A stretch of DNA of 12,672 nucleotides from assembly GCA_022257805.1 (NCBI GenBank), contig JAKOPB010000007.1, positions 1-12,672 of the forward strand, given 5' to 3'. A program made the position numbers and the translations under genes. This stretch comes from Nanobdellati archaeon. GTDB taxonomy: Archaea > Aenigmatarchaeota > Aenigmatarchaeia > PWEA01. This document shows positions 1 to 11,698 of the stretch, one piece after another (position 1 is the first letter of the stretch; each line of letters starts with the position of its first letter). Below the pieces are notes generated by a model that saw only the letters and a list, made by a program, of their open reading frames with translations, was not told where the DNA came from and did no database searches.

Positions 1-995
1 AGTGTTAGATATTCTGGATATCCCTCTACCTCATCGACGCGGAAGGTTATCTCTCCTGGAAGCCTCCTGTAGTTTGTTCGGCTGACGTCCAGGTATCTCA
101 CAGGTTTTTTCATCTCAGGAGCATCCCAGAAAAGTACCATGCTCGCCGAATCGAAGCTGTAGAGCCCTCCCTCCTCTGTGAACATCCTGACTTCGTTTTC
201 TCCTTCGTGTACGTCTACATATTCAAAATCTACCCACATAGATCTCCTGCCTGGTTTTTCTGTCCTCTGGTTGTATATTTCCACACCGTTGACCTCGATG
301 TAAAGTGGTTCATCTGGTACGAACCTGTCTGGTCTCAGAACCAACCTTCCCATCCTGAAGTTTCGGGCCTGTTCTCTGTCGAGTTCGAAGGTAAACCTCT
401 CCTCCTCTTCCTCCAGGATTTCTATGTTTACATTGAGATCTCTCAGGACGTACACGGTCGGTGCCCAGAACCTCCACCAGGAGGAAGCAGCTGCTACTTC
501 AAGCATATTGTTTTCCTGGAGAAGTTCCAGATCCAGGTTTATAGTGTGTGAACTTCCCTCCTCTGGATATCCGGAGTAGAACTCCTCCTCGTTGAAGGTC
601 ATGTATATTTCGTTTAGGTGGTTGGTTTCCTCTACATCGAACTCTATATTCATTGATTTCGTTCTTTCGATCTCGTCTTGGGTAAGGTCGAACTCCAGGT
701 AGTGGGGTTCGTTGCTAAGTATTCCCCTTTTGACGTTTGCCTCATCGAGTTTTGCTATGAGTCTGATTCTTTCGTCGAAGGAAAGCTCGAAGGGCATATC
801 TGTGAGGCTTATGTGTCTGTAGTCCGTATCCATTACACTTCCTACAAAGAAAGCATCTACTTTCTCGTCTATTGGTCGGAACTCGTACCTGTCGGGATCT
901 CTTATCGGGTCTCGTTCTATTTCAGCATCGCCGAATATCAGGAGTAAAACTCCGAAAAGAACGATGGCAACTACCAAAACCCTTGCGAAATCCAT
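1..995 (-). CDS. Membrane-anchored secreted protein of unknown function (C-terminus beyond left edge)
   Basis: An open frame of 331 codons runs on the minus strand from an ATG at 993-995 through the left edge with no stop. Residues 1-22 (MDFARVLVVAIVLFGVLLLIFG) form one hydrophobic helix, which suggests a signal anchor with the rest outside the cell. The exterior is acidic, rich in Glu, Asp, Arg, Phe and Tyr, and looks beta-rich. Two stretches resemble each other: residues about 115-195 and about 210-310. Both have alternating hydrophobic strands and segments of the form 'EVNGVEIYN...' and 'GENEVRMF', as in beta-sandwich domains of archaeal surface proteins. I do not recognise the family. It is divergent from pelA across 57 bases that must hold both promoters. 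Confidence 0.8.
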   Translation of the reverse strand, partial: MDFARVLVVAIVLFGVLLLIFGDAEIERDPIRDPDRYEFRPIDEKVDAFFVGSVMDTDYRHISLTDMPFELSFDERIRLIAKLDEANVKRGILSNEPHYLEFDLTQDEIERTKSMNIEFDVEETNHLNEIYMTFNEEEFYSGYPEEGSSHTINLDLELLQENNMLEVAAASSWWRFWAPTVYVLRDLNVNIEILEEEEERFTFELDREQARNFRMGRLVLRPDRFVPDEPLYIEVNGVEIYNQRTEKPGRRSMWVDFEYVDVHEGENEVRMFTEEGGLYSFDSASMVLFWDAPEMKKPVRYLDVSRTNYRRLPGEITFRVDEVEGYPEYLT

Positions 996-1052
996 GCTAC
1001 CACTTATATTAATCTAACCCGAACATTAAAATATTTATTGTATGGTGGTACG
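996..1052. promoter_or_regulatory. Divergent promoter region, surface protein / pelA
   Basis: This AT-rich spacer separates two divergent start codons. A TATA-like CTTATATTAA (1003-1012) lies about 45 bases before the pelA ATG and would give a short leader containing GGTGGT (1044-1049), a plausible Shine-Dalgarno sequence. ATTAAAATATTT (1025-1036) could serve the minus-strand gene, with a very short leader. The assignment of each box is inferred from spacing only. Confidence 0.5.
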
Positions 1053-2078
1053 ATGAAAATACTCGATAGCGACAAAAAAGATGGTATGCTGAAGCTAAAG
1101 GTAGAGAATCCCAATGATGTGTGGGAGCTGGAGAACGTACTGGAGGAGGGTGATCTTGTCAGTGCAGAGACCCTCAGAAGGAAGATGATAGATAGGAGGG
1201 ACGGACAGGAAAAGGGCGAGAAGAGACCGGTCTATCTGACAGTGAAGCTGGACAAGATAAAGTTCCACGAGCACACCGGTAACCTGCGGCTAACCGGGCC
1301 TATAGTGGATGGACCCGAGGACGTGGAAATGGACAGTTACCACACCATCGTGGCGGAGCCCGGTAAGGTCATCACTTCTATAAAAAAGGACGGGTGGAAG
1401 GACTGGCAGATAAAGACTATAAAAAAGGCCTACAGAAAGCCGCCTGAGGTTCTTGTCTGTGTACTTGACAGGGAAAGGGCAACCATAGCAAGGGTGAGCA
1501 ACAGCACAGAGATAATTTCAACAATAATGTCCGGAGGGTCCGGGAAACAGTATGATTCTGTGGAGGGAGACGAATACTTGGGCGAGGTTTTGTCGGTTCT
1601 ATCCAGAAAGGCCGAAAAATTCGATAAGATAGTGGTTGGAGGTCCTGGCTTTGTGAAGGACAAGTTATGTGAAATGCTGGATCAGAAAGGTCTGTCAGAC
1701 AAATGCGTCAAGGCCAGTACAAGCCAAGCTGATACCACGGGGATCGAGGAAGTGATCAAGAGGGGAATAATAGAGAAGGTCGTGGAGGACTCGAGATTGT
1801 CCGAGGAGAGTGGCGAGGTTGAGAGACTGTTCGAGGAGCTTTCCAAGGATTCGGGAAAGGTTGCGTACGGAAAGGAGAACGTGGAGGAGGCTGTTGAGAT
1901 GGGAGCTGTCGAGAAGGTTCTTGTGTCTGAGAGGAAGATCAAGGAACTCAAGGATCTGGTGAACGAGGCAGAGGACAAAGGGGCAGACATAATGATAGTT
2001 TCAGAGAGGCACGAGTCAGGTGAGAAATTGGGTAGAATGGGGGGTATAGCTGCCTTTTTGAGGTATAGAATAAGATAA
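1053..2078 (+). CDS. pelA: Protein Pelota homolog (mRNA surveillance / ribosome rescue)
   Basis: Archaeal Pelota (Dom34), 341 residues, the usual length. It has the three-domain order of the family: an N-terminal Sm-like beta domain (about 1-130, starting MKILDSDKKDGMLKLKVENP), a central eRF1-like domain (about 135-255, with the conserved segment IVVGGPGFVKDKL), and an eRF1 domain 3-like C-terminus ending GGIAAFLRYRIR. With aEF1A or ABCE1 this protein enters the A site of stalled ribosomes and promotes subunit dissociation. The ATG at 1053 is chosen because homologs begin MKI-like and GGTGGT lies 3 bases before it. An in-frame TTG at 1038 would add only five unconserved residues. The TAA stop (2076-2078) directly abuts the 3' end of the convergent tRNA-Ala gene, so any pelA 3' UTR is antisense to that tRNA. 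Confidence 0.95.
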   Translation: MKILDSDKKDGMLKLKVENPNDVWELENVLEEGDLVSAETLRRKMIDRRDGQEKGEKRPVYLTVKLDKIKFHEHTGNLRLTGPIVDGPEDVEMDSYHTIVAEPGKVITSIKKDGWKDWQIKTIKKAYRKPPEVLVCVLDRERATIARVSNSTEIISTIMSGGSGKQYDSVEGDEYLGEVLSVLSRKAEKFDKIVVGGPGFVKDKLCEMLDQKGLSDKCVKASTSQADTTGIEEVIKRGIIEKVVEDSRLSEESGEVERLFEELSKDSGKVAYGKENVEEAVEMGAVEKVLVSERKIKELKDLVNEAEDKGADIMIVSERHESGEKLGRMGGIAAFLRYRIR

Positions 2079-2114
2079 TGGACCCGGTGGGATTTGAACC
2101 CACGGTCTCCACCA

Positions 2115-2150
2115 TTTTGGATCTCTTATGGAATCCTTGCGGAAGTTCCT
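2115..2150 (-). other. tRNA-Ala anticodon-loop intron (37/38), 36 nt
   Basis: This is the canonical archaeal position. Exon UUGG (positions 32-35) pairs with intron CCAA to make the 4-bp central helix of a BHB motif. The bulges are CAA and AAU, cut as CA^A and AA^U. The intron folds as GGAA and UCC stems capped by a GCAA tetraloop. The 3' side opposite the 5' bulge is longer than 3 nt, so the motif is relaxed. Confidence 0.82.
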
Positions 2151-2167
2151 TGCCAAGGTGGCGTCTT

Positions 2168-2204
2168 TTCGGTACCACCGAAATCAAAAACTCGGTTTCC
2201 GTAT
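2168..2204 (-). other. tRNA-Ala D-loop intron, about 37 nt
   Basis: The D loop would be about 45 nt unless this segment is spliced. Removal leaves AGUGGAAA between D-stem strands GUCU and AGAC. A partial BHB is visible: UGG of the exon pairs with CCG near the 3' intron end, followed by AA^A. Inside is a 5-bp helix ACCGA/UCGGU. The central helix is only 3 bp, so this is the weakest of the three D-arm introns. Confidence 0.7.
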
Positions 2205-2245
2205 TTCCACTAGACTACGGGCCCTCACTGTTACAGAGAAAACAA

Positions 2246-2256
2246 GAAATAAAAAG
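2246..2256 (-). promoter_or_regulatory. TATA-like box for tRNA-Ala
   Basis: Minus-strand CTTTTTATTTC is centred 27 bases before G1 of tRNA-Ala, the spacing expected if transcription begins at or next to the mature 5' end. Confidence 0.5.
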
Positions 2257-2288
2257 CTTCTGGTTTTTGTCCCGTGTCGGTTTCATTT

Positions 2289-2828
2289 CTAAACTACTTC
2301 ATGTCCTGAAATCATCTGTGAGGATCTCCATAGGAAGTAGATGGTCAGGGCTCCTGTCAGGCCGAACATCATCCATTTAACAGTCGACTCCTTCTTGCCC
2401 ATGTGATCCATTCTTTCCTTTCCGTCGTACTTTTTCTCATGTCCCGATACTGGTACGGAGACCTTGTAGAGAAGGTAGAGTGCTGCCAAAGGAGCAACGA
2501 TAAATGAGATGAAGATACCGAACAAACCGCCGGCAATACCTGCTGCCGTTCCGGATAGACCACCTGCTAGGACTGTTAAACCACCAACGACCATGATTAT
2601 GGCAGGTAGCAACAGAATTGCAAACCATTTTCCAGTGGATTCCTTTTCTTTCCTGTGTTCTAAGGCCACGTACTCACCGGATATCTCTGTTTTATGTCCT
2701 GATACCATCTCTGCAATTTTCCAGAGGTAGTACAGGTTAACTACGGGTATCGCCGCTATTATTAACCATTTCCAGGTCGATTCCTTCTTATCTCTGTGCG
2801 AAAGTTTTGGAATTTTATCACCTGTCAA
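2289..2828 (-). CDS. Membrane protein with three KEST..SGHE repeats
   Basis: A 179-residue membrane protein of unknown function built from three copies of one unit. Each begins (K/E)KEST.KW, runs through a hydrophobic helix ending Y(F)LW(Y)K/R, and closes with (V/I)SGH(E/K). The copies sit near residues 13-46, 61-131 and 145-179. The middle copy contains an inserted long hydrophobic Gly/Ala-rich segment (residues about 78-105), so four or five helices are likely. The Ser-Gly-His ends and the KKEST starts would lie at equivalent positions near the membrane faces. The start is a TTG at 2826-2828. No Shine-Dalgarno sequence precedes it, but minus-strand CTTATTTT centred near 2856 lies 28 bases upstream, fitting a leaderless mRNA. 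The gene lies between tRNA-Ala and tRNA-Val on the same strand, with its own promoter. I do not recognise a named family. Confidence 0.82.
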   Translation of the reverse strand: MTGDKIPKLSHRDKKESTWKWLIIAAIPVVNLYYLWKIAEMVSGHKTEISGEYVALEHRKEKESTGKWFAILLLPAIIMVVGGLTVLAGGLSGTAAGIAGGLFGIFISFIVAPLAALYLLYKVSVPVSGHEKKYDGKERMDHMGKKESTVKWMMFGLTGALTIYFLWRSSQMISGHEVV

Positions 2829-2936
2829 ACCTTTTGTAGCTATATATAAAAAAATAAGTTTCGGGGTTCTGTCAGTTTGATAACATTGTGTAAAAGATGA
2901 TGGGCCCGGCAGGATTTGAACCTGCGATCTCCACCT

Positions 2937-2980
2937 TTTTCAAAGGCTAGAGTTTTGGTGAAGCTTTTTCTAAAAGCTTC
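2937..2980 (-). other. tRNA-Val anticodon-loop intron (37/38), 44 nt
   Basis: Exon UUCA (32-35) pairs with intron UGAA to form the 4-bp central helix. The bulges are CG^G on the 5' side and AA^A on the 3' side. The intron starts with a strong 8-bp hairpin, AAGCUUUU/AAAAGCUU, with a 3-nt loop. Confidence 0.82.
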
Positions 2981-2997
2981 CGTGAAGGTGGCGTCAT

Positions 2998-3052
2998 TTG
3001 CGGACAATCCTTCCACGGTTTTGATGAATCTTTTGTCCATGAAAAGATTCTT
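2998..3052 (-). other. tRNA-Val D-loop intron, 55 nt
   Basis: Exon GUGG (positions 15-19) pairs with intron CCGC as a 4-bp central helix. The bulges CU^A and AA^A give an 8-nt D loop, AGUGGCUA. The intron can fold with a 9-bp hairpin GAAUCUUUU/AAAAGAUUC, or with an alternative AAUCUUUUC/GGAAGGAUU stem next to the splice sites. A further 6-nt match, GGACAA/UUGUCC, competes with both. Confidence 0.78.
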
Positions 3053-3081
3053 AGCCACTAGACTACAGGCCCTCCCTTTCA

Positions 3082-3105
3082 CTTATATAACATCAACTAT
3101 TAATT
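3082..3105. promoter_or_regulatory. Back-to-back promoters, tRNA-Val and the 163-residue protein
   Basis: CTTATATAA (3082-3090) on the plus strand is centred 27 bases before the ATG at 3113. AATTAATAGT on the minus strand (3096-3105) is centred about 28 bases before G1 of tRNA-Val. Two face-to-face boxes share 24 bases. Confidence 0.55.
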
Positions 3106-3112
3106 TATGTTT

Positions 3113-3604
3113 ATGAAACTTGCGGAGGCCGTAGAGAAAGCAAAGGAACTTGATAGTATCAGAGACATAATTTCTTCTGGAGGGTTCCTCTGTTCGGCGT
3201 ACTTCATTGCAGAGAAGGACAAAAAGCCGGAAAACTGGAACCTCGCATTTTACTCAAAGGAGGACGAGGAAATAACCGCGGTAGAAGTTACTGAATCAGG
3301 TCCTGAACTGGGTGTAACTGATGCTCCCTTGCGCGAGGATACAGGGGAAGTGGTGATAGAAGAGGTGGAGTTTGGGGCAGAAAAGGCCCTGGAAAAGGCA
3401 AAGAAGCTGCTTGACGAAGAGTTTTCCATATCTTATGATAAAGTACTCTTTACCCTGAGGAAGAGGGACGGTGAGCAGGAGTGGAATGCTGTATTTGTAG
3501 GGAAAAGTCTTTCGATAGTTTCAATTGCTTTGAATTCGGCTAGCGGCGAGGTTACACAAAAGGAGAGAAAGAGCATGAACGCGGGCAAATCATTCGGCGG
3601 ATGA
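3113..3604 (+). CDS. Acidic soluble protein of unknown function
   Basis: A 163-residue soluble protein with no signal peptide or membrane helix. It has an N-terminal helix (MKLAEAVEKAKEL), then two regions with the same outline of a strand, an acidic turn and a hydrophobic strand. The second half (ALEKAKKLLDEEF..., then strands KVLFTLRKRDGEQEWNAVFV and SLSIVSIALNSASGEV) resembles the helix-plus-beta-sheet layout of PepSY-like domains, as does part of the first half (EKDKKPENWNLAFYS). That match is by outline only. The ATG at 3113 is preferred over the in-frame ATG at 3107, because a TATA box centred near 3086 lies 27 bases upstream and fits a leaderless transcript. It is divergent from tRNA-Val and convergent, with a 4-base gap, with the next minus-strand gene. 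Confidence 0.85.
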   Translation: MKLAEAVEKAKELDSIRDIISSGGFLCSAYFIAEKDKKPENWNLAFYSKEDEEITAVEVTESGPELGVTDAPLREDTGEVVIEEVEFGAEKALEKAKKLLDEEFSISYDKVLFTLRKRDGEQEWNAVFVGKSLSIVSIALNSASGEVTQKERKSMNAGKSFGG

Positions 3605-3608
3605 TATC

Positions 3609-3812
3609 TCAATGGACACGCCATCTTCTCAGCGTTTTTAACTGTGATCTCCTTCTCCAGTAATTTCTGTACCAGCTTATTACATAGCCCATTATAAACA
3701 TGGGTATAAAGGCTGCGAAAAAGGCAGAAGTAGATCCAATTAATGGGTCGGCAAAAATGGTTTCCAGACCCGACGGAAGGATACCGATAAATTCTCCAAA
3801 GATCTCATCCAA
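3609..3812 (-). CDS. Small single-helix membrane protein with WYRxYW motif (67 aa)
   Basis: A 67-residue protein with an acidic, hydrophobic N-terminal half, one membrane helix (about residues 27-46, SSAFFAAFIPMFIMGYVISW-like) and a strongly basic tail, YRNYWRRRSQLKTLRRWRVH. The start is TTG at 3810-3812. It is supported by minus-strand AAGGTGA placed 7 bases upstream, a good Shine-Dalgarno match where most neighbours have none, as expected for the second gene of an operon. The core GYxIxWYRxYWxxRxxLxT is shared with the 47-residue protein encoded 22 bases upstream, so the two are paralogs. The positive-inside rule puts the basic tail in the cytoplasm. Function unknown. Confidence 0.72.
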   Translation of the reverse strand: MDEIFGEFIGILPSGLETIFADPLIGSTSAFFAAFIPMFIMGYVISWYRNYWRRRSQLKTLRRWRVH

Positions 3813-3834
3813 GATATTTTCACCTTCTTATTTT

Positions 3835-3978
3835 TTATCTACCCATATGGGTCCTTAGCTCGTGTCTGTTCGTCCAGTAGTGTCTATACCAAGGGATCAG
3901 GTAACCTAGGAAAAAACCCAGCACACCGCCCCCGGCGAGGGAAGCAATTATGAAGGTATCTGTAACAGGGGTGAGCAT
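3835..3978 (-). CDS. Very small membrane protein with WYRxYW motif (47 aa)
   Basis: A minus-strand frame from ATG (3976-3978) to TAA (3835-3837) encodes 47 residues. It starts MLTPVTDTFIIASLAGGGVL, continues with a helix into GYLIPWYRHYW, and ends TNRHELRTHMGR. It shares helix-then-WYRxYW-then-basic-tail with the 67-residue protein that follows on the same strand, which argues that this short frame is real. Minus-strand TTTAAATA centred near 4005 lies 27 bases upstream, the leaderless spacing seen elsewhere in the window. Together they look like a two-gene unit of paralogous one-helix proteins. Function unknown. Confidence 0.72.
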   Translation of the reverse strand: MLTPVTDTFIIASLAGGGVLGFFLGYLIPWYRHYWTNRHELRTHMGR

Positions 3979-4000
3979 GTTTAATCATTGCTGTTCGTTC

Positions 4001-4015
4001 TATTTAAATTTATAG
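4001..4015 (-). promoter_or_regulatory. TATA-like box for the small membrane protein pair
   Basis: Minus-strand CTATAAATTTAAATA contains TTTAAATA, centred 27 bases before the 3978 ATG. It sits in the 45 bases between that start and the tRNA-Ile 3' end. Confidence 0.5.
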
Positions 4016-4059
4016 AAAGGGGATGGGACCGCCGGGATTCGAACCCGAGATCTCCGGCT

Positions 4060-4098
4060 TTCATGCCGCGCACAGGTTACATTTCCGCGCGGTGGCCT
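4060..4098 (-). other. tRNA-Ile anticodon-loop intron, 39 nt
   Basis: Exon UUAU can pair with intron AUGA (one G-U pair), with AAG bulges on both sides. The intron holds a 6-bp GC helix, CCGCGC/GCGCGG, with a 15-nt loop. Placing the cut after A37 or A38 gives the same mature sequence. Confidence 0.75.
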
Positions 4099-4113
4099 TA
4101 TAAGACCGGCGCT

Positions 4114-4132
4114 TTGGTCCCCTTCTCCGGGC
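4114..4132 (-). other. tRNA-Ile D-arm intron, 19 nt, near-ideal BHB
   Basis: Exon GGUU pairs with intron GACC (4 bp, one G-U) between two 3-nt bulges, AG^G and AA^A. Beyond the bulge, CCC/GGG closes a 6-nt loop. Excision restores a standard D arm ending TTAGAGC. The junction falls at about 22/23 in tRNA numbering. This is the clearest non-canonical intron of the window. Confidence 0.85.
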
Positions 4133-4177
4133 CTAACCAAGCTAAGCCACGGTCCCTGTGGATAGATTGTTACCTAA

Positions 4178-4196
4178 TAGTTAAAGCTTTTTATCT
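4178..4196. promoter_or_regulatory. Back-to-back promoters, tRNA-Ile and HTH regulator
   Basis: Minus-strand CTTTAACT (4179-4186) is centred 27 bases before tRNA-Ile G1. Overlapping it on the plus strand, GCTTTTTATCT (4186-4196) is a TATA candidate for the regulator gene, with a leader of about 40 bases. Confidence 0.45.
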
Positions 4197-4257
4197 TTGC
4201 GGAGTTAAAAAGATTTTGAAACGCATCTGTCATCTGAAGGTGCGTACGGGGCCTGAA

Positions 4258-5154
4258 ATGAGAACTGAAACTTTAAACGAGATACGAGAGTTTTTAATTT
4301 CCGGAGGCTTTGATATTTTCGAGTATACAAGAGGCTGTTTTGACATCGCTGCCAAAAGGGACAGACTCTTCTTACTCAAGATCTTGACTAATGTTGGTTC
4401 TTTTCAGAGGGGACAGGCAAGAGACCTAAAGTTACTGTCAAGTTTTCTCGATTCGAGTTGTTTCCTCTTAGGTGAGAGGACCAGGAGGGAAAGGCTCAAA
4501 GAATCCGTAGTTTACGAACGCTTCGGGGTTCCGGTCATGACACCCGATACCTTTACCTCTGTGATCGATGGAGACTATCCCGAAAAGTTCAGGACCAGAG
4601 GCGGCACCTTCGGAGAACTCGATCCTTCGGAGCTTCGAAGGTACAGGAAGATGAATGACATGACGCAGAGCGAGCTTGCCGAGGAGCTGGGGATTTCACA
4701 GAAGAGTGTATCCGAACACGAGTCTGGGAAGAAAAGAGCCCTCTTTGACATAGTCAAAGCCTTTGAAGAGCTCTTGGATGAAGATATAAGGAAAGGCATA
4801 AATCCTTTTGATATAGAACCCGAGGTAGAGGATAGAAGAAGAGGAAATAAGATCTGTAGAAGGCTAGTGGATATGGGCTTCCGTACAGGATCTGTTCAGA
4901 GGGCGCCCTCGAAGCTTCTTGCAAAAAGCGATAGGACCGTACTTTCAAGAGTTGTAAAAAGAGAAGAGGATAAAAAAGAGCTTGATTCATTGGCAAACTT
5001 TTCCAGGATAAGCGAAGCAGAGGCGTTTATCATAACGACTGGTGATGAGAATATAGACATAGTACCTCCGATCAATATAGAGGAGCTCGAGGACATAGAC
5101 AGTTCAGGGGAGCTTGTGAAACTCATCGAGGAGAAAAAGGAGTCCGTCTGGTAA
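4258..5154 (+). CDS. Archaeal XRE-type HTH transcriptional regulator (MJ0586-like family)
   Basis: A 298-residue DNA-binding protein. An N-terminal domain (about 1-115) of mixed alpha/beta type begins MRTETLNEIREFLISGGFDI and resembles nuclease-like or substrate-binding folds. It is followed by a clear lambda-repressor-type HTH (about 122-165), with LRRYRKMNDMTQSELAEELG and SQKSVSEHESGKKR. A C-terminal domain of about 120 residues ends near EEKKESVW. This layout matches the putative archaeal HTH regulator family typified by MJ0586 (COG1395). The ATG at 4258 fits the family start; an in-frame GTG at 4240 is possible. The frame stays open further upstream to 3988, but that part lies on the antisense of tRNA-Ile and is not coding. 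The target is unknown; in-window candidates are only neighbours by position. Confidence 0.9.
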   Translation: MRTETLNEIREFLISGGFDIFEYTRGCFDIAAKRDRLFLLKILTNVGSFQRGQARDLKLLSSFLDSSCFLLGERTRRERLKESVVYERFGVPVMTPDTFTSVIDGDYPEKFRTRGGTFGELDPSELRRYRKMNDMTQSELAEELGISQKSVSEHESGKKRALFDIVKAFEELLDEDIRKGINPFDIEPEVEDRRRGNKICRRLVDMGFRTGSVQRAPSKLLAKSDRTVLSRVVKREEDKKELDSLANFSRISEAEAFIITTGDENIDIVPPINIEELEDIDSSGELVKLIEEKKESVW

Positions 5155-5156
5155 AA

Positions 5157-5167
5157 GATTAATAAAG
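5157..5167 (+). promoter_or_regulatory. TATA-like box for the three-helix membrane protein
   Basis: AGATTAATAAA is centred 28 bases before the ATG at 5190 and just after the regulator stop, giving a leaderless transcript. Confidence 0.5.
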
Positions 5168-5189
5168 CCTGAAAAACGTTTTCTTCTCT

Positions 5190-5669
5190 ATGAGGTTGGG
5201 TCATCTTAAGCTTCAGAAAATACTCACTGAAGAGAACAAGAGAAGGATGTACAAAGGAGGCGTGATCCTCTTTTTCCTGGGTCTTCTCTTGATGACTTTA
5301 TCATTTCGTCCGCATCCTGCTTTAAGCGTACCTATAGAGTATCTCCATATAACGTTTGCGGCCGCCTTCATAATGATTCCGTCCGGAGCAATACTGGTAA
5401 TGATTTCCAGGATGTTCCACAAACTCACATATATAACGGCTCTTCTCGTTTTTCTTGCTTCACTAGGTATTGTGGCCCATATACAGATTCAAAGCTACAG
5501 AACGAGTGGAGTGGACCTTTGCTGTGATCTTTTTGTGGATGCAGGTGGCTGTGAAACAAGAGATTTCCCCGAGGATTTCACGGTAACTGTTGACGAGGAG
5601 GAGCTGGACTGTACGTCTTTGTATCCTGGTACAGGTTTGTATAATTGGAGATCAGTCTGCACTTGCTAG
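5190..5669 (+). CDS. Three-helix membrane protein with cysteine-rich exterior
   Basis: A 159-residue protein of unknown function. A basic N-terminal stretch (KLQKILTEENKRRMYK) precedes three hydrophobic helices at about 22-42, 53-76 and 81-101. The positive-inside rule places the N-terminus inside and the last 55 residues outside. That tail carries six cysteines: a CC pair, three spaced singles (one of them in SVCTC), and the C-terminal residue itself. They could form disulfides outside the cell. The ATG at 5190 is 28 bases after a TATA-like box. The stop TAG overlaps the stop of the convergent endonuclease IV gene in the palindrome CTAG (5666-5669). Confidence 0.8.
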   Translation: MRLGHLKLQKILTEENKRRMYKGGVILFFLGLLLMTLSFRPHPALSVPIEYLHITFAAAFIMIPSGAILVMISRMFHKLTYITALLVFLASLGIVAHIQIQSYRTSGVDLCCDLFVDAGGCETRDFPEDFTVTVDEEELDCTSLYPGTGLYNWRSVCTC

Positions 5670-6502
5670 TTTCTTATCTCCTTAACTTTACTTATGTTCC
5701 AGGCGAAGCCCCTTTCGTCTACAGGAGTTTCGAGTACCATGGGCTTGTCTCTTAGTTTTTTGTGGTTCACGAACAGACGGAAGCCTCTTTCGCCTATTTT
5801 TCCTTCTCCTATGTGTTCGTGCTCGTCTTTTTCCGATGCAAAGCTATACTTGGAGTCGTTCAGGTGGAGAAAGTGTACGTTTTTTAAACCTACGTTCTTT
5901 TCCAGCTTATCCAGCAGTTCTTCCAGTTTTCCTTCTGTCGAGAAATCATATCCACCGGAGTACATGTGACAGGTATCGAGACAGACGCCCAGCTTTTCGT
6001 AGCCGCAGTCCGAGATGTCTATCATCCTGGAGAGTTCTCCGAAAGTTTGGCCCAGGGTAGTACCCTTTCCTGCGGTGTTTTCCAGTAGGACCTTTACATC
6101 ATCATGGATCTCCAGCTTCGAAAGCCTCTCTGCGACGTTTTCAATACCTCTCTCTACTCCTGCTCCTGTGTGTGCTCCGGGATGAAAAACGTAGTATGGT
6201 ATCCCTAGCTTTGAAGTCGCGTCGATCTCTGCCTGCATCGTTTCCAGGGACTTATTCCCGAGCTCTTCCTTGGGCGTGGCCAGGTTTATGAGGTAGGTGC
6301 TGTGGACTATCCAGGGTTTTATGTCCTTCTTTTCCGCGAGTTCTCTGAATCTCTTCGCATCTTCCTCGTCCGGTTGTTTCACCTTCCAGCCACGGGGCGA
6401 TCCTACGAAGATCTGTCCGCAGTTTCCGCCCGTTTCTTCTTCCCTCTCCACGGCCCTGTGTAAGCCTCCGCTTATGGATACGTGTGCTCCGAGTCTGAAC
6501 AT
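5666..6502 (-). CDS. nfo: Endonuclease IV (AP endonuclease)
   Basis: A 278-residue TIM-barrel AP endonuclease that cuts the DNA backbone 5' of abasic sites and some oxidised bases in base-excision repair. It starts MFRLGAHVSISGGL, the family's typical beginning. All three-metal-centre segments are present in order: His67 in VHSTYLINLA, His107 in FHPGAHTG, Glu in LLENTAGKGTTLG, Asp and His in GVCLDTCHMYSGGYD, His in HLNDSK, Asp and His in DEHEHIGEGKIG, and Glu in LETP. The length is normal. Minus-strand AAATTTAAC is centred 28 bases before the ATG, so the mRNA is probably leaderless. It is divergent from the small four-cysteine gene and convergent with the upstream membrane protein gene. Confidence 0.96.
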   Translation of the reverse strand: MFRLGAHVSISGGLHRAVEREEETGGNCGQIFVGSPRGWKVKQPDEEDAKRFRELAEKKDIKPWIVHSTYLINLATPKEELGNKSLETMQAEIDATSKLGIPYYVFHPGAHTGAGVERGIENVAERLSKLEIHDDVKVLLENTAGKGTTLGQTFGELSRMIDISDCGYEKLGVCLDTCHMYSGGYDFSTEGKLEELLDKLEKNVGLKNVHFLHLNDSKYSFASEKDEHEHIGEGKIGERGFRLFVNHKKLRDKPMVLETPVDERGFAWNISKVKEIRN

Positions 6503-6548
6503 ACATTTATAGGTTTGAAAGCCAAGTTAAATTTGTTTGGTGTGGGCA
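6503..6548. promoter_or_regulatory. Divergent promoter region, nfo / four-cysteine protein
   Basis: Minus-strand AAATTTAAC (6526-6534) fits nfo with 28-base spacing. Plus-strand ACATTTATAG (6503-6512) would start the small gene about 16 bases before its ATG, with GGTGTGG (6539-6545) as a possible ribosome binding site. Confidence 0.45.
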
Positions 6549-6752
6549 ATGGAAAATGCAAAGGACGAGCTGGAATTCTGCTTGGAGCTTTGGGGCAAAA
6601 AGGATGGTTGCGACTTCGGCGGCGGGACAAGATGCGAAGAGTGCGCAGCGCCTTACGTGCTTTACAAGCTAATTACAGGTGAGGTGCTTCACGACGATGA
6701 AAGACTTACACAAGAAGACTGGAGGGGCAAATTAAAGGAAGTAAAGGGATAA
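6549..6752 (+). CDS. Small four-cysteine protein, possibly zinc-binding
   Basis: A 67-residue acidic protein. Cysteines at 11, 21, 29 and 32 have the spacing C-x9-C-x7-C-x2-C, with CDFGGGTRCEEC in the middle. This could bind zinc, but a redox or structural role is equally open. The rest is charged and helical (LYKLITGEVLHDDERLTQED). The ATG at 6549 is chosen over a TTG at 6537 because GGTGTGG lies 3-9 bases upstream. No family recognised. It is divergent from nfo and 114 bases before the thermosome start region. Confidence 0.7.
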   Translation: MENAKDELEFCLELWGKKDGCDFGGGTRCEECAAPYVLYKLITGEVLHDDERLTQEDWRGKLKEVKG

Positions 6753-6777
6753 CTTGGGCATGGTGAGGAGTCCATAA

Positions 6778-6866
6778 CCTTTAAATATGTGCATGGAGGT
6801 ATATTTGCCCTGGGGTAACACCACAATTTTAACACCGAAATCCATTTAAACAAAAAAACTTAGGAG
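6778..6866 (+). promoter_or_regulatory. Thermosome promoter and leader with strong Shine-Dalgarno
   Basis: CTTTAAATATG (6779-6789) is the best TATA candidate and would give a leader of about 60 bases. A second AT box, ATTTAAAC (6844-6851), is closer to the gene. The heptamer TAACACC occurs at 6816-6822 and 6830-6836 (14-base period), a possible operator. The leader ends in TAGGAGGTGA (6861-6870), a near-perfect anti-16S match and the strongest in the window. Confidence 0.5.
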
Positions 6867-8549
6867 GTGATAACTATTTCACCAGGAACACAAGGTATGG
6901 GTCAGCCCATCTTCATTCTAGGAGAGGACACAGAAAGGCAAAGTGGTAAAGGAGCACAGAAGAACAACATTGCTGCAGGGAAAGCAGTTGGAGACACAGT
7001 ACGAACTACGCTCGGTCCGAAGGGAATGGACAAGATGCTCGTAGACTCGGTGGGCGATATCGTAGTAACCAACGACGGGGTTACGATCCTCGACGAGATG
7101 GAGATCGAACACCCTGCTGCCAAGATGATGGTCGAAGTAGCGAAAACTCAGGAAGAGCAGGTCGGCGACGGTACCACTACGGCAGTTGTGATTGGTTCTG
7201 AACTGTTGAAGAAGGCCGAAGACCTTCTGGATCAGGACATCCATCCGACTGTGATTACACGTGGTTTCAACCTGGCTGCCGAGAAGGCTCTGGAGCATCT
7301 GGAGGACATCGGCGAAGAGGTTGACTTCGAAAAGAACAGGGATCTCTTGAAGAAGATAGCGATGACTGCGATAACCGGCAAGTCTGCCGAAAAGGCTTAC
7401 AGGAAGTACGCTGAGCTTGCAGTAAAGGCGATTGAATCGATCATGGACAAGAGTGAAGGAGAGGTAAACATCGACAAGGACGATGTAAAGATCGAAAAGA
7501 ACGAAGGTGACGGAATCAGTAGTTCAAAGCTGATAGAGGGCATCATCATAGACAAGGAGATGGTCCACGCGGACATGCCGAAGAAGATCAAGGACGCGAA
7601 GATAGCGCTAGTCAACACGGCCCTCGAGGTAGATGAAACGGAGACGAACGCAGAGATACAGATATCTTCGCCTGATCAACTAGAGAGCTTTTTGGATCAG
7701 GAAGAGAAGATGTTGAAGAAGATGGTAGAGAAGATAGTCGACTCCGGTGCGGACATAGTCTTCTGCCAGAAGGGCATAGACGACATCGCACAGCACTACC
7801 TTGCGAAGAAGGGAATTGCTGCAGTTCGCAGAGTTAAGAGCGATGACATGGAAAGACTGGCCAGAGCGACAGAGGCCAAGATAGTTAACAGCCTGGACGA
7901 TCTGGATGAAAGGGATCTAGGCGAGGCAGGAAGCATCGAGGAGAAAAAGGAAGGAGACAAGATGATCTACGTACAGGACTGCAAGAGTCCGAGATCGGTT
8001 TCGCTTCTACTTACAGGAGGTACGGAACACGTAGTCGACGAAGCAGAAAGATCCATGAACGATGCTCTGGACTGTATCATCACGGCACTCAAGTCAGGCA
8101 GCATAGTGGCCGGTGGTGGTTCAGTAGAACAGGAACTCTCGAACAGGCTCAAGAAGTATGCACAGTCGGAGTCAGGAAGAGAACAGCTTGCGATAAGAGC
8201 CTTTGCCGAGGCACTTGAAGTTATTCCGAGAACCCTGGCCGAAAACACCGGTCTGGACCCGGTCGATGCGCTTGTCGAGATAAGGTCCGCCCACGAAGAG
8301 GGAAAGAAGAACCACGGACTGGACGTTGAGAAAGGCAAGGTAGTGGATATGCGCAAGGCAGGTGTCATCGAACCTCTTGGAATCAAGAAGCAGGCCATTC
8401 AGTCCGCCAGTGAAGCTGCAGAGATGATTCTCAGGATCGACGATGTAGTTTCTGCAGGTCAGTTGAGCGGTGGCGATGGGGGTGGAGGACCGCCAGGAGG
8501 AGGCATGCCGGGCGGAGGAATGCCACCAGGTGCCATGGGAGGATTGTAG
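6867..8549 (+). CDS. Thermosome subunit (group II chaperonin)
   Basis: An ATP-driven chaperonin subunit that assembles into a double-ring folding chamber with a built-in lid. Conserved segments from the N-terminus: [25 protein letters not shown], the nucleotide-site [14 protein letters not shown] and [11 protein letters not shown], then GDGTTTAVV with its catalytic-region Asp. The apical domain is in the middle and VAGGGSVE is in the second equatorial part. The C-terminus is a flexible [21 protein letters not shown] tail. From the first possible codon it has 560 residues. The start is unclear. GTG at 6867 lies inside the Shine-Dalgarno sequence, ATG at 6897 gives the conserved MGQPIFIL but is 29 bases beyond it, and ATT at 6876 has ideal 8-base spacing from AGGAGG. 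A pyrimidine-rich stretch follows the stop. Confidence 0.95.
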
Positions 8550-8563
8550 CTCCCAAAACAAAC

Positions 8564-8594
8564 CTACCCCTTCTCTTTTCTTATTTTCCCGCCC
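8564..8594 (+). terminator. Pyrimidine-rich terminator after thermosome
   Basis: The 31 bases after the thermosome stop are almost all C and T, with T clusters (TTCTCTTTTCTTATTTTCCC at 8571-8590). This fits T-rich archaeal termination and lies just before the next promoter. Confidence 0.5.
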
Positions 8595-8599
8595 CACAA

Positions 8600-8609
8600 A
8601 ATATTTAAG
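8600..8609 (+). promoter_or_regulatory. TATA-like box for the coiled-coil gene
   Basis: AATATTTAAG is centred 28 bases before the ATG at 8632, fitting a leaderless mRNA. Confidence 0.55.
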
Positions 8610-8631
8610 TAAGACTCACAAATCTACCTGT

Positions 8632-9222
8632 ATGACAGAAGACGAAGTAGAGATAGAACCCGATGATGACGAGTATGAAGTAGTTCCCCTTTCTCCGATA
8701 AGGAAGCTCGAGAAGAGAATTGATGAACTTGAGGAGCGGAAAGACGTTGGCGATGCGAAAGGTCTTGTACTTGAAGTCATGGACCTGATAAAGGCAAATC
8801 AAAGGATGGTCGATGAGATAGTCAAGTCGAACAACGATCTCAGGAGAGAGCTCGAAGAACTGCCTGGTAAGATAGATGAGGTGACAGAGCAGTGGAGCGA
8901 GTTCCTCGATATACTGAAGAGAGGCGAGGAAAGCCAGCCAGAATCTGCAGTTTCCGAAGGAATTTCTCAGGATATGAAAAAACTTGTCGAGCTCAACAAG
9001 AACCTAATAGAGAAGAACGAAGAGATGGTTGACTCCATAGTTTCTCTAAAGGAAAGTATGCGTGGAAAAGCTGGCGACGGTAGTAGTCCGAAGGTCCGGG
9101 TTAAAAAGAACTCTAGGTCCCCTGGGAGAGACCAAGCTGGTAATAGAAGTGAGAGAAGAGACAGCCGAAGGGGCAATCCCAGGGTAAAAATAAAAGACAG
9201 AAATAAGAACCAGATGGAATAA
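8632..9222 (+). CDS. Coiled-coil protein with acidic head and basic tail
   Basis: A 196-residue soluble protein of unknown function. Residues 2-19 are very acidic (TEDEVEIEPDDDEYEVV). Residues about 24-90 and 105-145 have heptad-like leucine and isoleucine patterns (IRKLEKRIDELEE, LRRELEELPGKIDEV, LVELNKNLIEKNEEMVD), so two coiled coils are likely. The last 48 residues are basic, rich in Ser, Arg, Asn and Lys, and probably disordered; they could contact nucleic acid or lipid head groups. The ATG at 8632 has a TATA box 28 bases upstream; the frame upstream overlaps the thermosome tail and is not coding. The next gene follows after 20 bases with a Shine-Dalgarno sequence, so the two are probably co-transcribed. 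The position before the pilin genes suggests, but does not prove, a role with surface filaments. Confidence 0.82.
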   Translation: MTEDEVEIEPDDDEYEVVPLSPIRKLEKRIDELEERKDVGDAKGLVLEVMDLIKANQRMVDEIVKSNNDLRRELEELPGKIDEVTEQWSEFLDILKRGEESQPESAVSEGISQDMKKLVELNKNLIEKNEEMVDSIVSLKESMRGKAGDGSSPKVRVKKNSRSPGRDQAGNRSERRDSRRGNPRVKIKDRNKNQME

Positions 9223-9242
9223 TAAATGGAGGTGAAGACCTC

Positions 9243-9437
9243 ATGTTTGAAATGGAAGATGTAAGCGGCCTTGAGCTCATTGTTTTCGTGGTTCTGGCCG
9301 TGACAATTGTGCTTTCCCTGATCTTCGTACCATATCAGATATGGACAGGACAGGGGATGATGGTTGAGATACTGCTCTCCGTTCTGATAATCGTTCAGTT
9401 GGTTTCCCTCGTGTTCCAGATCAGAGAATCAAAATGA
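9243..9437 (+). CDS. Small two-helix membrane protein (64 aa)
   Basis: A 64-residue membrane protein. A short acidic head (MFEMEDVSG) is followed by helix 1 (about 10-32, ending VPYQIW), a turn WTGQGMM, and helix 2 (about 39-60), with a short charged end, IRESK. Both ends probably face the same side. GGAGGTGA at 9227-9234 lies 8 bases before the ATG at 9243, a strong ribosome binding site as expected for the second gene of a unit with the coiled-coil gene. A hairpin terminator follows. No family recognised; it may anchor its coiled-coil partner. Confidence 0.75.
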   Translation: MFEMEDVSGLELIVFVVLAVTIVLSLIFVPYQIWTGQGMMVEILLSVLIIVQLVSLVFQIRESK

Positions 9438-9445
9438 AAATTACA

Positions 9446-9475
9446 GGCTGGTCCTACCAGCTCTTTATTTTTACC
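9446..9475 (+). terminator. Hairpin plus T-rich terminator
   Basis: GGCTGGT (9446-9452) pairs with ACCAGCT (9456-9462, one G-U) around a CCT loop, followed by CTTTATTTTTA. It lies 8 bases after the 64-residue gene's stop and before the first pilin promoter. Confidence 0.65.
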
Positions 9476-9507
9476 CTTCCTACAGATCGTGCTCTTGCGT
9501 GGATGCG

Positions 9508-9524
9508 TCCAAAAAGCTTAAATA
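9508..9524 (+). promoter_or_regulatory. Pilin 1 promoter (BRE/TATA), copy A
   Basis: TCCAAAAAGCTTAAATA, followed by GGAGC, lies 28 bases before the pilin ATG. The purine-rich half resembles a BRE and GCTTAAATA a TATA box. The same 17 bases recur before pilin 2. Confidence 0.65.
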
Positions 9525-9552
9525 GGAGCTATAGTATAACCTAATTGATACA

Positions 9553-9951
9553 ATGAAAAGAAAAGGTGTAACACCCGTAATAGCAATCATTTTGCTGCTA
9601 CTGATTGTAGTTGTCATGATCGGCGGTGTCTTCGCATGGATGTCAGTTATGCAGGAAGACGTTGAAGAGGCAACCCGCGAGGGAGTTCTGGAATTCATAG
9701 AAGAAGCAGAGCGCAATGTAGAGGTCGTTACATACAGCTGTGATACAGGAGAAGTTTACCTTTACAACGGCGTGTCAGATAACTTCGATGTATCCCTCTA
9801 CATTGATGGAGAAAACAGAGGTTCGACAACGATAGACCTAGGTGAAGAGAATGTAGGCGAAGTATTGAATGTCGGTGATGTTGACGAAGGAAACCGTTTT
9901 GAAGTGTCTCATCAAGGTCATGTAGTTGAAAGAGAGACCTTCCGTTGTTGA
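9553..9951 (+). CDS. Archaeal type IV pilin, paralog 1
   Basis: A 132-residue prepilin. The class III-type leader MKRKG should be cut by the PibD/ArlK-type prepilin peptidase before VTPVIAIILLLLIVVVMIGG. This exposes the hydrophobic helix that packs in the filament core, as in the archaeal type IV pilin N-terminal family (Pilin_N, DUF1628). After a charged helix (about 34-56), residues 57-132 form a beta-rich head with two cysteines, Cys63 in VTYSC and Cys132 as the last residue in ETFRC, probably a disulfide. The ATG at 9553 starts exactly at the leader. It has its own promoter and is followed 181 bases later by a second pilin that matches it at both ends. Confidence 0.93.
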   Translation: MKRKGVTPVIAIILLLLIVVVMIGGVFAWMSVMQEDVEEATREGVLEFIEEAERNVEVVTYSCDTGEVYLYNGVSDNFDVSLYIDGENRGSTTIDLGEENVGEVLNVGDVDEGNRFEVSHQGHVVERETFRC

Positions 9952-10054
9952 TGACTTCCAGTAGCTGCACAGACTAGTAGCTGTGGCTTTGTTTAGCCCA
10001 GATGTATGTAAACAGCCCCCGTTATTTTTCTTTCTTTCTTCTTTCTTTTTCAGT
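9952..10054 (+). terminator. Spacer after pilin 1 with pyrimidine-rich terminator
   Basis: The first half contains CACAG/CTGTG (9968-9985), a weak inverted repeat, and two TAGCTG copies. From 10016 to 10053 the plus strand is almost pure pyrimidine (long TTTCTTTCTTTC-like runs), typical of T-rich archaeal termination. No open frame here has support. Confidence 0.5.
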
Positions 10055-10090
10055 GTTCAAGGTTTTTCTTTAGCTCATTATCAGATTATT

Positions 10091-10107
10091 TCCAAAAAGC
10101 TTAAATA
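10091..10107 (+). promoter_or_regulatory. Pilin 2 promoter (BRE/TATA), copy B
   Basis: TCCAAAAAGCTTAAATA is identical to the element before pilin 1 and is followed by CGAGC, 25 bases before the ATG at 10133. The spacer downstream differs from pilin 1's. Confidence 0.65.
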
Positions 10108-10132
10108 CGAGCCTGAACATATTTTTTATGTT

Positions 10133-10540
10133 ATGAGGAGAAAAGGTGTAACACCCGTAATAGCAGTTATCCTGTTGTTATTGATTGTAGTTGTCATGAT
10201 CGGTGGTGTCTTCACATGGATGAACCTTGTCCAAGAGGACATCGAGGAGGCGACCCGGGAACAGGTTATAAGGTTTATAGATGATGTTCGGCAGGACGTG
10301 TACATTGTAACGTACAGTTGTGGTGTTGAGGTGTACGTTCACAACAGCTGGGAAGAAGAAATTGAAAACGTACAGGTTTACTTAAACGGACAGAGCATAG
10401 GCGATCTCAATCTCCCGGCAGGCGAAGACATAGGCCTTGTGGACGAAGACGTTCTTAATGGACCTCATATTGCTCAGGACAACTACCTAGAACTGTCGGT
10501 CGAAGGTAGGGTTATTGCTAGCGAGACCTTCCGTTGTTGA
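10133..10540 (+). CDS. Archaeal type IV pilin, paralog 2
   Basis: A 135-residue prepilin with leader MRRKG and mature start VTPVIAVILLLLIVVVMIGG. The first 63 residues align without gaps to paralog 1 and keep Cys63 in VTYSC. The C-terminus again ends ETFRC (Cys135). Between them the head domain differs strongly (e.g. VYVHNSWEEEIENVQVYLNG against VYLYNGVSDNFDVSLYIDGE). The ATG at 10133 is required by the leader; the frame is open to 9983 but that covers the terminator and promoter. It probably forms the major or an alternative filament subunit. Confidence 0.93.
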   Translation: MRRKGVTPVIAVILLLLIVVVMIGGVFTWMNLVQEDIEEATREQVIRFIDDVRQDVYIVTYSCGVEVYVHNSWEEEIENVQVYLNGQSIGDLNLPAGEDIGLVDEDVLNGPHIAQDNYLELSVEGRVIASETFRC

Positions 10541-10569
10541 CACTGCCCGGTCTGGTTTACAGGAATAGT

Positions 10570-10577
10570 TTTATATC
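10570..10577 (+). promoter_or_regulatory. TATA-like box for the downstream pilus operon
   Basis: TTTATATC is centred 28 bases before the ATG at 10601. It probably drives 10601 through the right edge as one unit. Confidence 0.55.
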
Positions 10578-10600
10578 CCTCCGGTTAGCTATAAAGAGTA

Positions 10601-11224
10601 ATGTTTGGTAGTTTTGGTTTTTTCGAAATCAGGAAGGGTCAGCAGGTTCTGACAGCCATTTTACTCACAGGAGTCATACTTACAGTTTCCTTTTCTGCAT
10701 ACTTCTGGGGCAGAGAGATTCTCGAAAAGTCCAGAGATCAAAGAGAGTTCGAGGAGATGGAAAGGTTTATGAGAGACCTTAATAAAAACATAAAGGAGGT
10801 TTCTGTGCGTGGAGGCCGGGAGGAGATGTCCGTGGACCTTCCAAGCGATGCTGAGCTTAGAATAAACGATGCAACTGCTCCGGGTACCGACAATGTGACA
10901 CTGAGCTTTGGTGTACAGGGCAAGATGATGGCCACAGGCCAGGATTTTGCTATAGTTGGCACAAAGGGTTCGGAGGCAAGGATAACCGAGGATCCCGATG
11001 TGATAGTTGCGAATTCTATAGGAAGACGTGATCATTATTCCGTGGAATTCAGGTTATACTACAAAAACGTTACCGTGGAGGGTGAACCGGACAACAGGAT
11101 AGGTATAGATTCGGTTGGTAGAAACACAGCAGTTAATGAGAGGGTAAACATGATTATAGAAAGGGGTTCCACAGAGGAGTATAACGGATTTACGGTCAAT
11201 AAAGTTGAAGTAAGAATAGTTTAG
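10601..11224 (+). CDS. Pilin-like secreted protein (207 aa)
   Basis: A 207-residue protein with a prepilin-type start: MFGSFGFFEIRKG, a likely cut before QQVLTAILLTGVILTVSFSA, then a helix running into WGREILEKSRDQREFEEMERF. The exterior (about 65-207) is beta-rich with alternating hydrophobic residues, has several N-glycosylation-type sequons (NVT twice), and ends VNKVEVRIV. Archaeal minor pilins and archaellum-associated FlaF/FlaG-like subunits have this shape, but I see no specific match. The ATG at 10601 is 28 bases after a TATA box. The next gene follows after 11 bases, so it heads an operon. Confidence 0.85.
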   Translation: MFGSFGFFEIRKGQQVLTAILLTGVILTVSFSAYFWGREILEKSRDQREFEEMERFMRDLNKNIKEVSVRGGREEMSVDLPSDAELRINDATAPGTDNVTLSFGVQGKMMATGQDFAIVGTKGSEARITEDPDVIVANSIGRRDHYSVEFRLYYKNVTVEGEPDNRIGIDSVGRNTAVNERVNMIIERGSTEEYNGFTVNKVEVRIV

Positions 11225-11235
11225 ATAGCGGTATT

Positions 11236-11697: not shown

Positions 11698-11698
11698 T

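Follow-up and report, generated by a model that had tools for sequence, protein, structure and literature searches.

Three tRNA genes with two introns each

The 12,672-nt stretch analysed here (the window; positions 1 to 12,672 of the forward strand of contig JAKOPB010000007.1, from the Nanobdellati archaeon assembly GCA_022257805.1) carries on its minus strand genes for tRNA-Ile(UAU), tRNA-Val(CAC), and tRNA-Ala(GGC), each interrupted in both the D arm and the anticodon loop. This arrangement had been proposed from the letters of the window alone (the original prediction), and all six inserts have now been located and scored against the bulge-helix-bulge (BHB) motif of archaeal introns. The assembly, denoted G000, comprises 609,866 bases in 145 contigs and is 85.55% complete; G001–G005 denote five other genomes of the same genus. 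The genes, their introns, and the matches to R1, a covariance model of the intron core described below, are as follows.

4024..4156, minus strand: tRNA-Ile(UAU) gene, 133 nt, two introns; Rfam RF00005 match (46.4 bits), acceptor and T stems, orthologues in G001, G002, G003, and G005
4114..4132, minus strand: D-arm intron of tRNA-Ile(UAU), 19 nt, site ~22/23; central helix 4/4 (GGUU/GACC), intron-side helix 3/3, exon-side helix 2/3
4059..4097, minus strand: anticodon-loop intron of tRNA-Ile(UAU), 39 nt, site 37/38 or 38/39 (same product); in the best-scoring register, central helix 4/4, intron side 3/3, exon side 0/3
2901..3072, minus strand: tRNA-Val(CAC) gene, 172 nt, two introns; orthologue in G001 (L104:1552-1399)
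2998..3052, minus strand: D-arm intron of tRNA-Val(CAC), 55 nt, site ~20a/21, hairpin core at 3052-3014; central helix 4/4, flanking helices 2/3 and 2/3
3052-3014, minus strand: core of the preceding intron; R1 match of 51.3 bits, itself a training row of R1
2937..2980, minus strand: anticodon-loop intron of tRNA-Val(CAC), 44 nt, site 37/38; full BHB (4/4, 3/3, 3/3)
2982-2948, minus strand: R1 match in the preceding intron, starting 2 nt ahead of it; 40.9 bits, training row
2079..2224, minus strand: tRNA-Ala(GGC) gene, 146 nt, two introns; orthologues in G001, G002, G004, and G005
2169..2205, minus strand: D-arm intron of tRNA-Ala(GGC), 37 nt, site ~20/20a; central helix 3/4, flanking helices 2/3 and 2/3, the weakest of the six
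2115..2150, minus strand: anticodon-loop intron of tRNA-Ala(GGC), 36 nt, site 37/38; central helix 4/4, exon side 3/3, intron side 1/3

Removal of both inserts from each gene yields the set of lengths originally predicted (73, 73, and 75 nt), the order for Ile, Val, and Ala being 75, 73, and 73 nt. The acceptor stems (7 bp) and T stems (5 bp) are completely paired in all three tRNAs when G-U pairs are counted, the anticodon stems are likewise intact in the spliced forms, and the minimum-energy fold of spliced Ala is a cloverleaf. As also predicted, the D-arm sites, to which numbers were assigned by hand, lie at nearly the same place (Ile, 22/23; Val, 20a/21; Ala, ~20/20a); several intron ends can be moved by 1–3 nt with the product unchanged. 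The Rfam tRNA model spans the Ile gene end to end (4156-4024, minus strand), treating 26 and 40 letters as long insertions in the D and anticodon loops, and ARAGORN, as run, called no tRNA in the window. No Rfam group I intron match was obtained in the window at E<=1, and the inserts measure 19–55 nt. Two Rfam matches below gathering, one to tmRNA at 2224-2076 and the other to HPnc0260 on part of the complement of the Val gene, were dismissed as misread tRNAs. The isoleucine gene at 4024-4156 has the anticodon UAU; according to PMC8450103, such an Ile tRNA takes the place of Ile2(CAU) in N. equitans and Korarchaeum.

Splicing motif and intronless orthologues

The score of each junction took account of a 4-bp central helix, of 3-nt bulges in which the cut follows the second base, and of two outer helices. 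The central helix is complete in five of the six introns of the window, and both outer helices, which define the strict hBHBh' form, are complete only in the anticodon-loop intron of Val; the D introns, with 2/3 pairs in the exon-side helix, and the anticodon-loop intron of Ile have relaxed forms. Among 20 distinct introns of the sampled genomes whose ends were fixed by a template with at most seven mismatches plus gaps, 17 have the full 4-bp central helix, compared with 0.8 expected when the intron letters are shuffled, and the three others (two D introns in tRNAs with a CAU anticodon and one 15-nt anticodon intron) all score 3/4. In the HBh' form seen in the D arm, the G18–G19 region of the D loop makes one side of the central helix (e.g., GGUU/GACC in Ile), and it may be for this reason that the D-arm sites agree.

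Genomes G001–G005 were sampled at the places of their Rfam tRNA matches. The Ile(GAU) gene of G000 (128 nt, with a 53-nt D insert), whose intron is absent from G002, G004, and G005, has intronless 75-nt orthologues, and Pro(GGG) (130 nt, 55-nt D insert) and Arg(UCU) (113 nt, 38-nt anticodon insert) each have a 75-nt orthologue in G001, all with zero exon mismatches. The D intron of Pro(GGG) is missing also from G004, in which a 15-nt anticodon insert occurs instead, and the Cys intron is missing from G002. The window genes are found again in the genus beyond what chance would give: Ile, Val, and Ala lie together on a single contig in G001 (L104), as do Ile and Ala in G002 (L102) and in G005 (L103), and these orthologues retain the exons, with D inserts that vary in length and sequence. 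Some D insert is present in all five Ala(GGC) genes examined, differing in length and sequence, and the Ala gene of G001 (L104:748-630) has no anticodon-loop insert. At the D site of Ile(UAU), similar sequences of 19, 18, and 19 nt occupy G000, G002, and G005, and inserts of 41 and 40 nt with sequences unlike that of G000 occupy G001 and G003, all five ending in GACCAA. G000 and G001 share an identical 44-nt anticodon intron in Val but differ in the D intron of this gene. The best explanation is that the genus gains, swaps, and loses tRNA introns fast.

Interrupted tRNA genes across the genome

For G000, tRNA candidates were located by T-loop patterns, taken from among the matches listed (~100 per list), and by Rfam, and 58 stretches were examined. 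Because the T-loop patterns gave 237 hits against 117 for a reversed-pattern control, a T stem and an acceptor partner were demanded, together with positions 8–9, for a gene to be kept. Thirty-one rows scored above the loosest threshold, of which eight scoring <17 were dropped as frames outside tRNA genes; the His gene was entered by hand from its Rfam match. Of the 24 complete tRNA genes thus found, 22 are interrupted by our assignment, with 28 introns in total, which bears out the genome-wide habit suggested by the original prediction. Only Asp(GUC) and Arg(UCG) are uninterrupted, and one further gene is truncated by a contig end (C108). Besides the anticodon loop and the D arm, introns occupy site 30/31 (Arg(CCU)), site 25/26 (Trp), and the T arm (His). 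The ends of eight of the 28 introns were set by a close intronless template and the remainder by structure, those of Trp, Glu, two Leu, and Arg(CCU) being assigned by hand. The 24 genes require no split or permuted tRNA, for which no search was made.

Several individual genes may be added. His(GUG) (L026 445-542, contig C110) carries a 26-nt T-arm insert after position 53 and has two mismatches to its intronless sister. Trp(CCA) (L012 668-482, contig C54) contains, besides the short insert near 25/26, a 90-nt anticodon intron with AATGATA-like boxes, which may make it a box C/D guide of the kind known from other archaea. In the order-level relatives G006, G007, G010, and G013, merely two to five Rfam tRNA matches were obtained per genome, perhaps because introns break the D and T loops; interrupted tRNA genes are present in G007, G009, and G013. 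A 324-nt Val-type tRNA on the minus strand of L240 (G007:C16) carries two inserts, a long one in the D arm and one at the anticodon, the latter holding a repeated unit (CCTTTACTCGGCGTAAAG ... GTCAACGGAAACTGGCTTGGTGAA, twice), like an intron nested in an intron.

A hairpin core shared by introns of different tRNAs

In an all-against-all comparison of 99 introns from the six genomes, the D introns of Val, Ile(GAU), and Pro(GGG) and the anticodon intron of Cys in G000 proved to be near copies residing in different tRNAs (local scores, 50–72; maximum of the null, 24 over 14,553 shuffled comparisons). Such copying between tRNA genes was not noticed in the original prediction. The Val and Ile(GAU) D introns are the same at 38 of 40 core letters, loop included, and the core is found also in the Val anticodon intron, the D intron of Leu(CAG), and the D intron of Ile(UAU) in G001. 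It consists of a hairpin, RAANCUUUU/AAAAGNUUY, followed by NNCAAAA (an AUCAAAA tail); the 9-bp stem is 100% paired in nine rows, with four pairs changed on both sides. The copies diverge 3' of AUCAAAA, where pairing with a new exon would be required. According to the folds computed for Val and Ile(GAU), pairing between the 3' tail and the 5' arm of the core is also possible, suggesting that the hairpin and the splicing fold may be mutually exclusive in these two tRNAs. Viral contigs contained no match to the 30-nt core pattern.

The covariance model R1 was built from the nine rows and searched in 40 genomes of the class, with a mirror-image model of equal composition and hairpin as the control. 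At E<=0.5, R1 gave 248 matches in 36 of the 40 genomes (control, 29 in 20 genomes), and at E<1e-3, 90 matches (control, 0); discounting the ten that are training rows or exactly duplicate one leaves a fair comparison of 80 versus 0. The E-values are rough, and overlapping matches inside arrays were counted separately. The six matches in G000 at E<=0.5 are all training rows in tRNA introns, and no additional copy was found there. We then surveyed 47 places, namely, the best match in each of 27 genomes with a locus and the next 20 in order of E, and found 27 to lie inside tRNA genes, much of this being judged by eye. The best-per-genome matches include 14 in the D, anticodon, or T arm of tRNA genes (L245, L247, and L249 being training rows, and the tRNA site of L271 being unassigned), one in 23S rRNA (L259), and two that directly abut a tRNA, at its 5' end and in antisense in L250 and at its 3' end in L256. 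Among the next 20, 13 are in tRNA genes (L291 truncated by a contig end), two in the 3' flank of a tRNA, and five elsewhere (L285, L287, L289, L292, and L293). A core site in the T loop after GUUCRA(A) is frequent and occurs in G001, G004, and G005 as well; one T-loop insert of G037, >200 nt long, holds tandem core copies (L252).

The last of these genes (L252, G037:C33, 1299-1770) encodes a class II tRNA interrupted in the D, anticodon, and T loops; its T-loop insert is the tandem core array, and an extra copy follows directly after the last tRNA base. The core copy at 1501-1537 of L259 (G038:C8) is located within an archaeal 23S rRNA match, and the core family may form rRNA introns too. L292 and L293, both from G010, are intergenic core copies with similar surroundings between near direct repeats GGTGTCTTGTC; by eye, they are placed just upstream of a ribosomal protein L2-like frame and a radical-SAM-like frame.

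The splicing endonuclease

The original prediction had assumed an endonuclease of broad substrate range and proposed that its subunits be classified. The sole splicing endonuclease found in G000 (contig C121; L020 495-1589; 364 aa) is a single chain with two PF02778-PF01974 repeats, which is the α'2-type layout, and its fold is nearest to the M. kandleri and A. fulgidus enzymes. Comparison with 3p1y revealed no CSL-like insert, and the loop YFGKKRA-NRVEL is as long as its counterpart in single-repeat enzymes, with no insertion of the CSL or ASL kind, the place of the ASL being derived from the aligned range of 4fz2 rather than from a residue-by-residue alignment. These insertions are linked to a broad substrate range in the sections used of PMC6379350 and PMC12397907, which also describe how the broad-range enzymes of ARMAN-2 (ε2) and of crenarchaea ((αβ)2) serve genomes rich in odd tRNA introns. 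The assumption of a broad-range enzyme calls for correction on this account, and the D-arm introns, which keep the 4-bp helix and the 3-nt bulges but are mostly devoid of an exon-side helix, would have to be cut by an enzyme devoid of CSL and ASL.

In the N-terminal half, the Tyr and His residues are kept in all 19 rows of the Aenigmatarchaeota type, and the Lys position is occupied by K, R, G, E, D, S, or Q. In the C-terminal half, Lys stands one place later than in the methanogen rows (IRSK versus VRK or VKK), so that, judging from the alignment, the catalytic lysine seems to be shifted by one residue in the enzymes of this type. The C-half groups with single-repeat Aenigmarchaeota enzymes (support, 87/89, which is not strong), and its longer Tyr-His loop resembles that of N. 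equitans α. It is in this grouping, the longer loop, and the IRSK motif that the enzyme differs from A. fulgidus α'2 (2gjw) and the fused αβ enzyme of M. kandleri (5x89). In a tree of the halves, the N-half sits on a very long branch with unsettled bootstrap values; the fusion may or may not have arisen independently of the methanogen α'2.

Host lineage and neighbouring genes

The pelota gene adjoining the tRNA cluster (1038-2078) is 73–75% identical to those of three metagenome-assembled genomes (MAGs) of Candidatus Aenigmatarchaeota, T1Sed10_105, T1Sed10_213, and B1Sed10_69, which presumably derive from soda-lake sediments. By these matches, the host belongs to none of the lineages that had been named in connection with its introns (Thermoproteales, Thaumarchaeota, and ARMAN-type archaea). 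In the pelota relatives (L003–L005 and L095–L098), the tRNAs of the window do not adjoin the gene within the stretches examined; a motif match at L003:4439 was dismissed, because it resembles coding DNA. Elsewhere in the window, the start of the listed open reading frame 3988-5154 crosses tRNA-Ile in antisense, and the encoded helix-turn-helix protein more likely starts near 4255. The region 9553-11697, 3' of the thermosome gene, contains a row of small pilin-like or DUF7266/DUF7289-like proteins, for which the Pfam matches are weak.

Interpretation and alternatives

Judged from sequence, we consider it most likely (probability, about 0.88) that the three genes are working tRNA genes with two archaeal BHB introns each, and that one hairpin-core family has spread among tRNA genes. 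In vivo, bases of the D loop or the anticodon loop in the precursor would pair with the 3' end of the intron to form a 4-bp helix between 3-nt bulges, the fused two-repeat endonuclease would cut both bulges, including those of the D-arm form, and a ligase, expected to be RtcB, would join the exons. Introns with the hairpin core and AUCAAAA would have moved between tRNA genes and between the D, anticodon, and T loops, either by reverse splicing followed by recombination or as a DNA element; neither the copies that abut tRNAs nor the tandem arrays discriminate between these routes, and the direction of spread is likewise presumed. A bolder version, to which we give somewhat less than even odds, holds that a mobile element of ~28–40 nt, spreading by a mechanism of its own such as reverse splicing or transposition through single-stranded DNA, colonised tRNA genes across the class in the D, anticodon, and T loops and one 23S rRNA, building T-loop arrays of >200 nt, and that the endonuclease is broad in range without the known loops; the element would then be tolerated, as the endonuclease would remove anything between two bulges.

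Several observations weigh against the interpretation as working genes with a spreading intron family. The D intron of Ala has only 3/4 central pairs, the D-arm introns mostly have the HBh' form lacking the exon-side helix, and none of the six introns of the window is in the strict template set, so that their assignment rests on the Ala orthologue, the arms of isoacceptors, and the BHB geometry. The minimum-energy folds of spliced Ile and Val depart from the cloverleaf in some arms. About half of the normal tRNA set was not found in the 85.55%-complete assembly, possibly because of absent contigs or undetected interrupted genes. Ten of the 27 best-per-genome core matches (L254, L258, L260–L263, L265, L266, L268, and L270) are elsewhere or unassigned to a tRNA or rRNA. 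As for the enzyme, G002, which is 94% complete and rich in interrupted tRNAs, gave no tRNA_int_endo match, G005 holds two fused endonuclease genes, and a narrow range has been ascribed in the literature to this enzyme type in A. fulgidus.

If the D-loop segments were kept in the mature tRNAs as long hairpins and the anticodon-loop introns alone were spliced, the stable hairpins in the D segments of Val and Ile(GAU) and the constant presence of a D segment in the five Ala(GGC) genes would find an explanation, and Val with only its anticodon intron removed indeed folds at -51.7 kcal/mol, compared with -36.2 kcal/mol for the fully spliced, shorter RNA. This is very improbable, since orthologues of Ile(GAU) and Pro(GGG) in the same genus dispense with the segment while their exons are identical, the Ile(UAU) segment varies in sequence and length between species, and the ends of the D-arm segments carry the 4-bp helix far beyond chance. 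That the genes are assembly chimeras or tRNA pseudogenes is hardly credible: the MAG is indeed fragmented (145 contigs), but interrupted forms of these genes are found again in other genomes of the genus, the acceptor, T, and anticodon stems are completely paired in each gene, and no second copy of the Ile(UAU), Val(CAC), or Ala(GGC) anticodon exists among the 24 genes found.

Two further alternatives concern the core. A structure selected repeatedly from independent origins, for example as a folding insulator or a protein-binding site, would be immobile; the covarying stem, together with loops and outer pairs that differ between families, fits such a selected shape, and core copies occur outside tRNA genes too. 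We regard this as unlikely, because the D introns of Val and Ile(GAU) share 38 of their 40 core letters, with the loop in the shared part, which is more than a shape would require, and because Ile(GAU), Pro(GGG), and Cys have no intron in some sister genomes. Less probable again is an IS200/IS605- or REP-like nature of the core, as a small DNA element that a Y1 transposase moves via single-stranded DNA and that becomes an intron upon landing in a tRNA loop. The ends of IS200/IS605 elements likewise combine a hairpin with an adjacent fixed tetranucleotide, and the fixed hairpin with its NNCAAAA tail, the tandem arrays in G037 (L252 and L289), the copies flush with tRNA 3' ends (L252, L256, and L296), and the intergenic copies between near direct repeats (L292 and L293) would all be in keeping with it; in G000, however, the six core matches are model rows and none lies outside tRNA genes at E<=0.5, and the target sites track BHB pairing instead of one DNA word.

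Relation to known systems and significance

D-arm BHB introns, several introns per gene, and intron transposition are already known from Thermoproteales, for which non-canonical and multiple BHB tRNA introns and their transposition are reported by Fujishima et al. 2010, as cited in passages of PMC4090602. The present lineage resembles Thermoproteales in the use of canonical and D-arm sites, several introns per gene, near-identical introns across isoacceptors, and BHB junctions, and the signs of transposition are the same in both, namely, near-identical introns at different positions and recipient genes that are intronless in close relatives. Unlike Thermoproteales, it belongs to the phylum Aenigmatarchaeota and has a class-wide hairpin-plus-AUCAAAA core, T-loop copies and tandem arrays in relatives, and another type of endonuclease. 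The intron density of G000 is high but is no record: excerpts of PMC8450103 give an average of 0.84 introns per tRNA gene for Thermoproteales and 71 introns in 46 genes for P. calidifontis, which is more per gene than the 28 in 24 of G000. In near-saturation (22 of 24 genes) and many non-canonical sites, G000 is similar to three Asgard genomes (Atabeyarchaeia and Freyarchaeia) with 92–95% of tRNA genes interrupted, as given in parts of PMC11291895; the lineage is different, and those parts describe no shared mobile core for Asgard archaea. Published Aenigmatarchaeota tRNA introns were not found in open-access papers, preprints being outside the scope, and the portion used of an Aenigmarchaeota paper (PMC8407114) does not mention introns. 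As far as open-access papers show, three things are new: the lineage, a core that can be traced across the class and forms T-loop arrays, and the occurrence of a two-repeat endonuclease without CSL or ASL in an intron-saturated genome.

A lineage of Aenigmatarchaeota thus joins the few in which nearly all tRNA genes are interrupted, and the introns, which break the D and T loops that standard searches look for, suggest why few tRNAs have been reported in its relatives. The endonuclease of G000 tests the rule that a broad range requires a CSL or ASL loop. Near-identical introns and intronless sister genes represent gain events with a donor family, a target, and an empty site, through which the movement of archaeal tRNA introns becomes testable.

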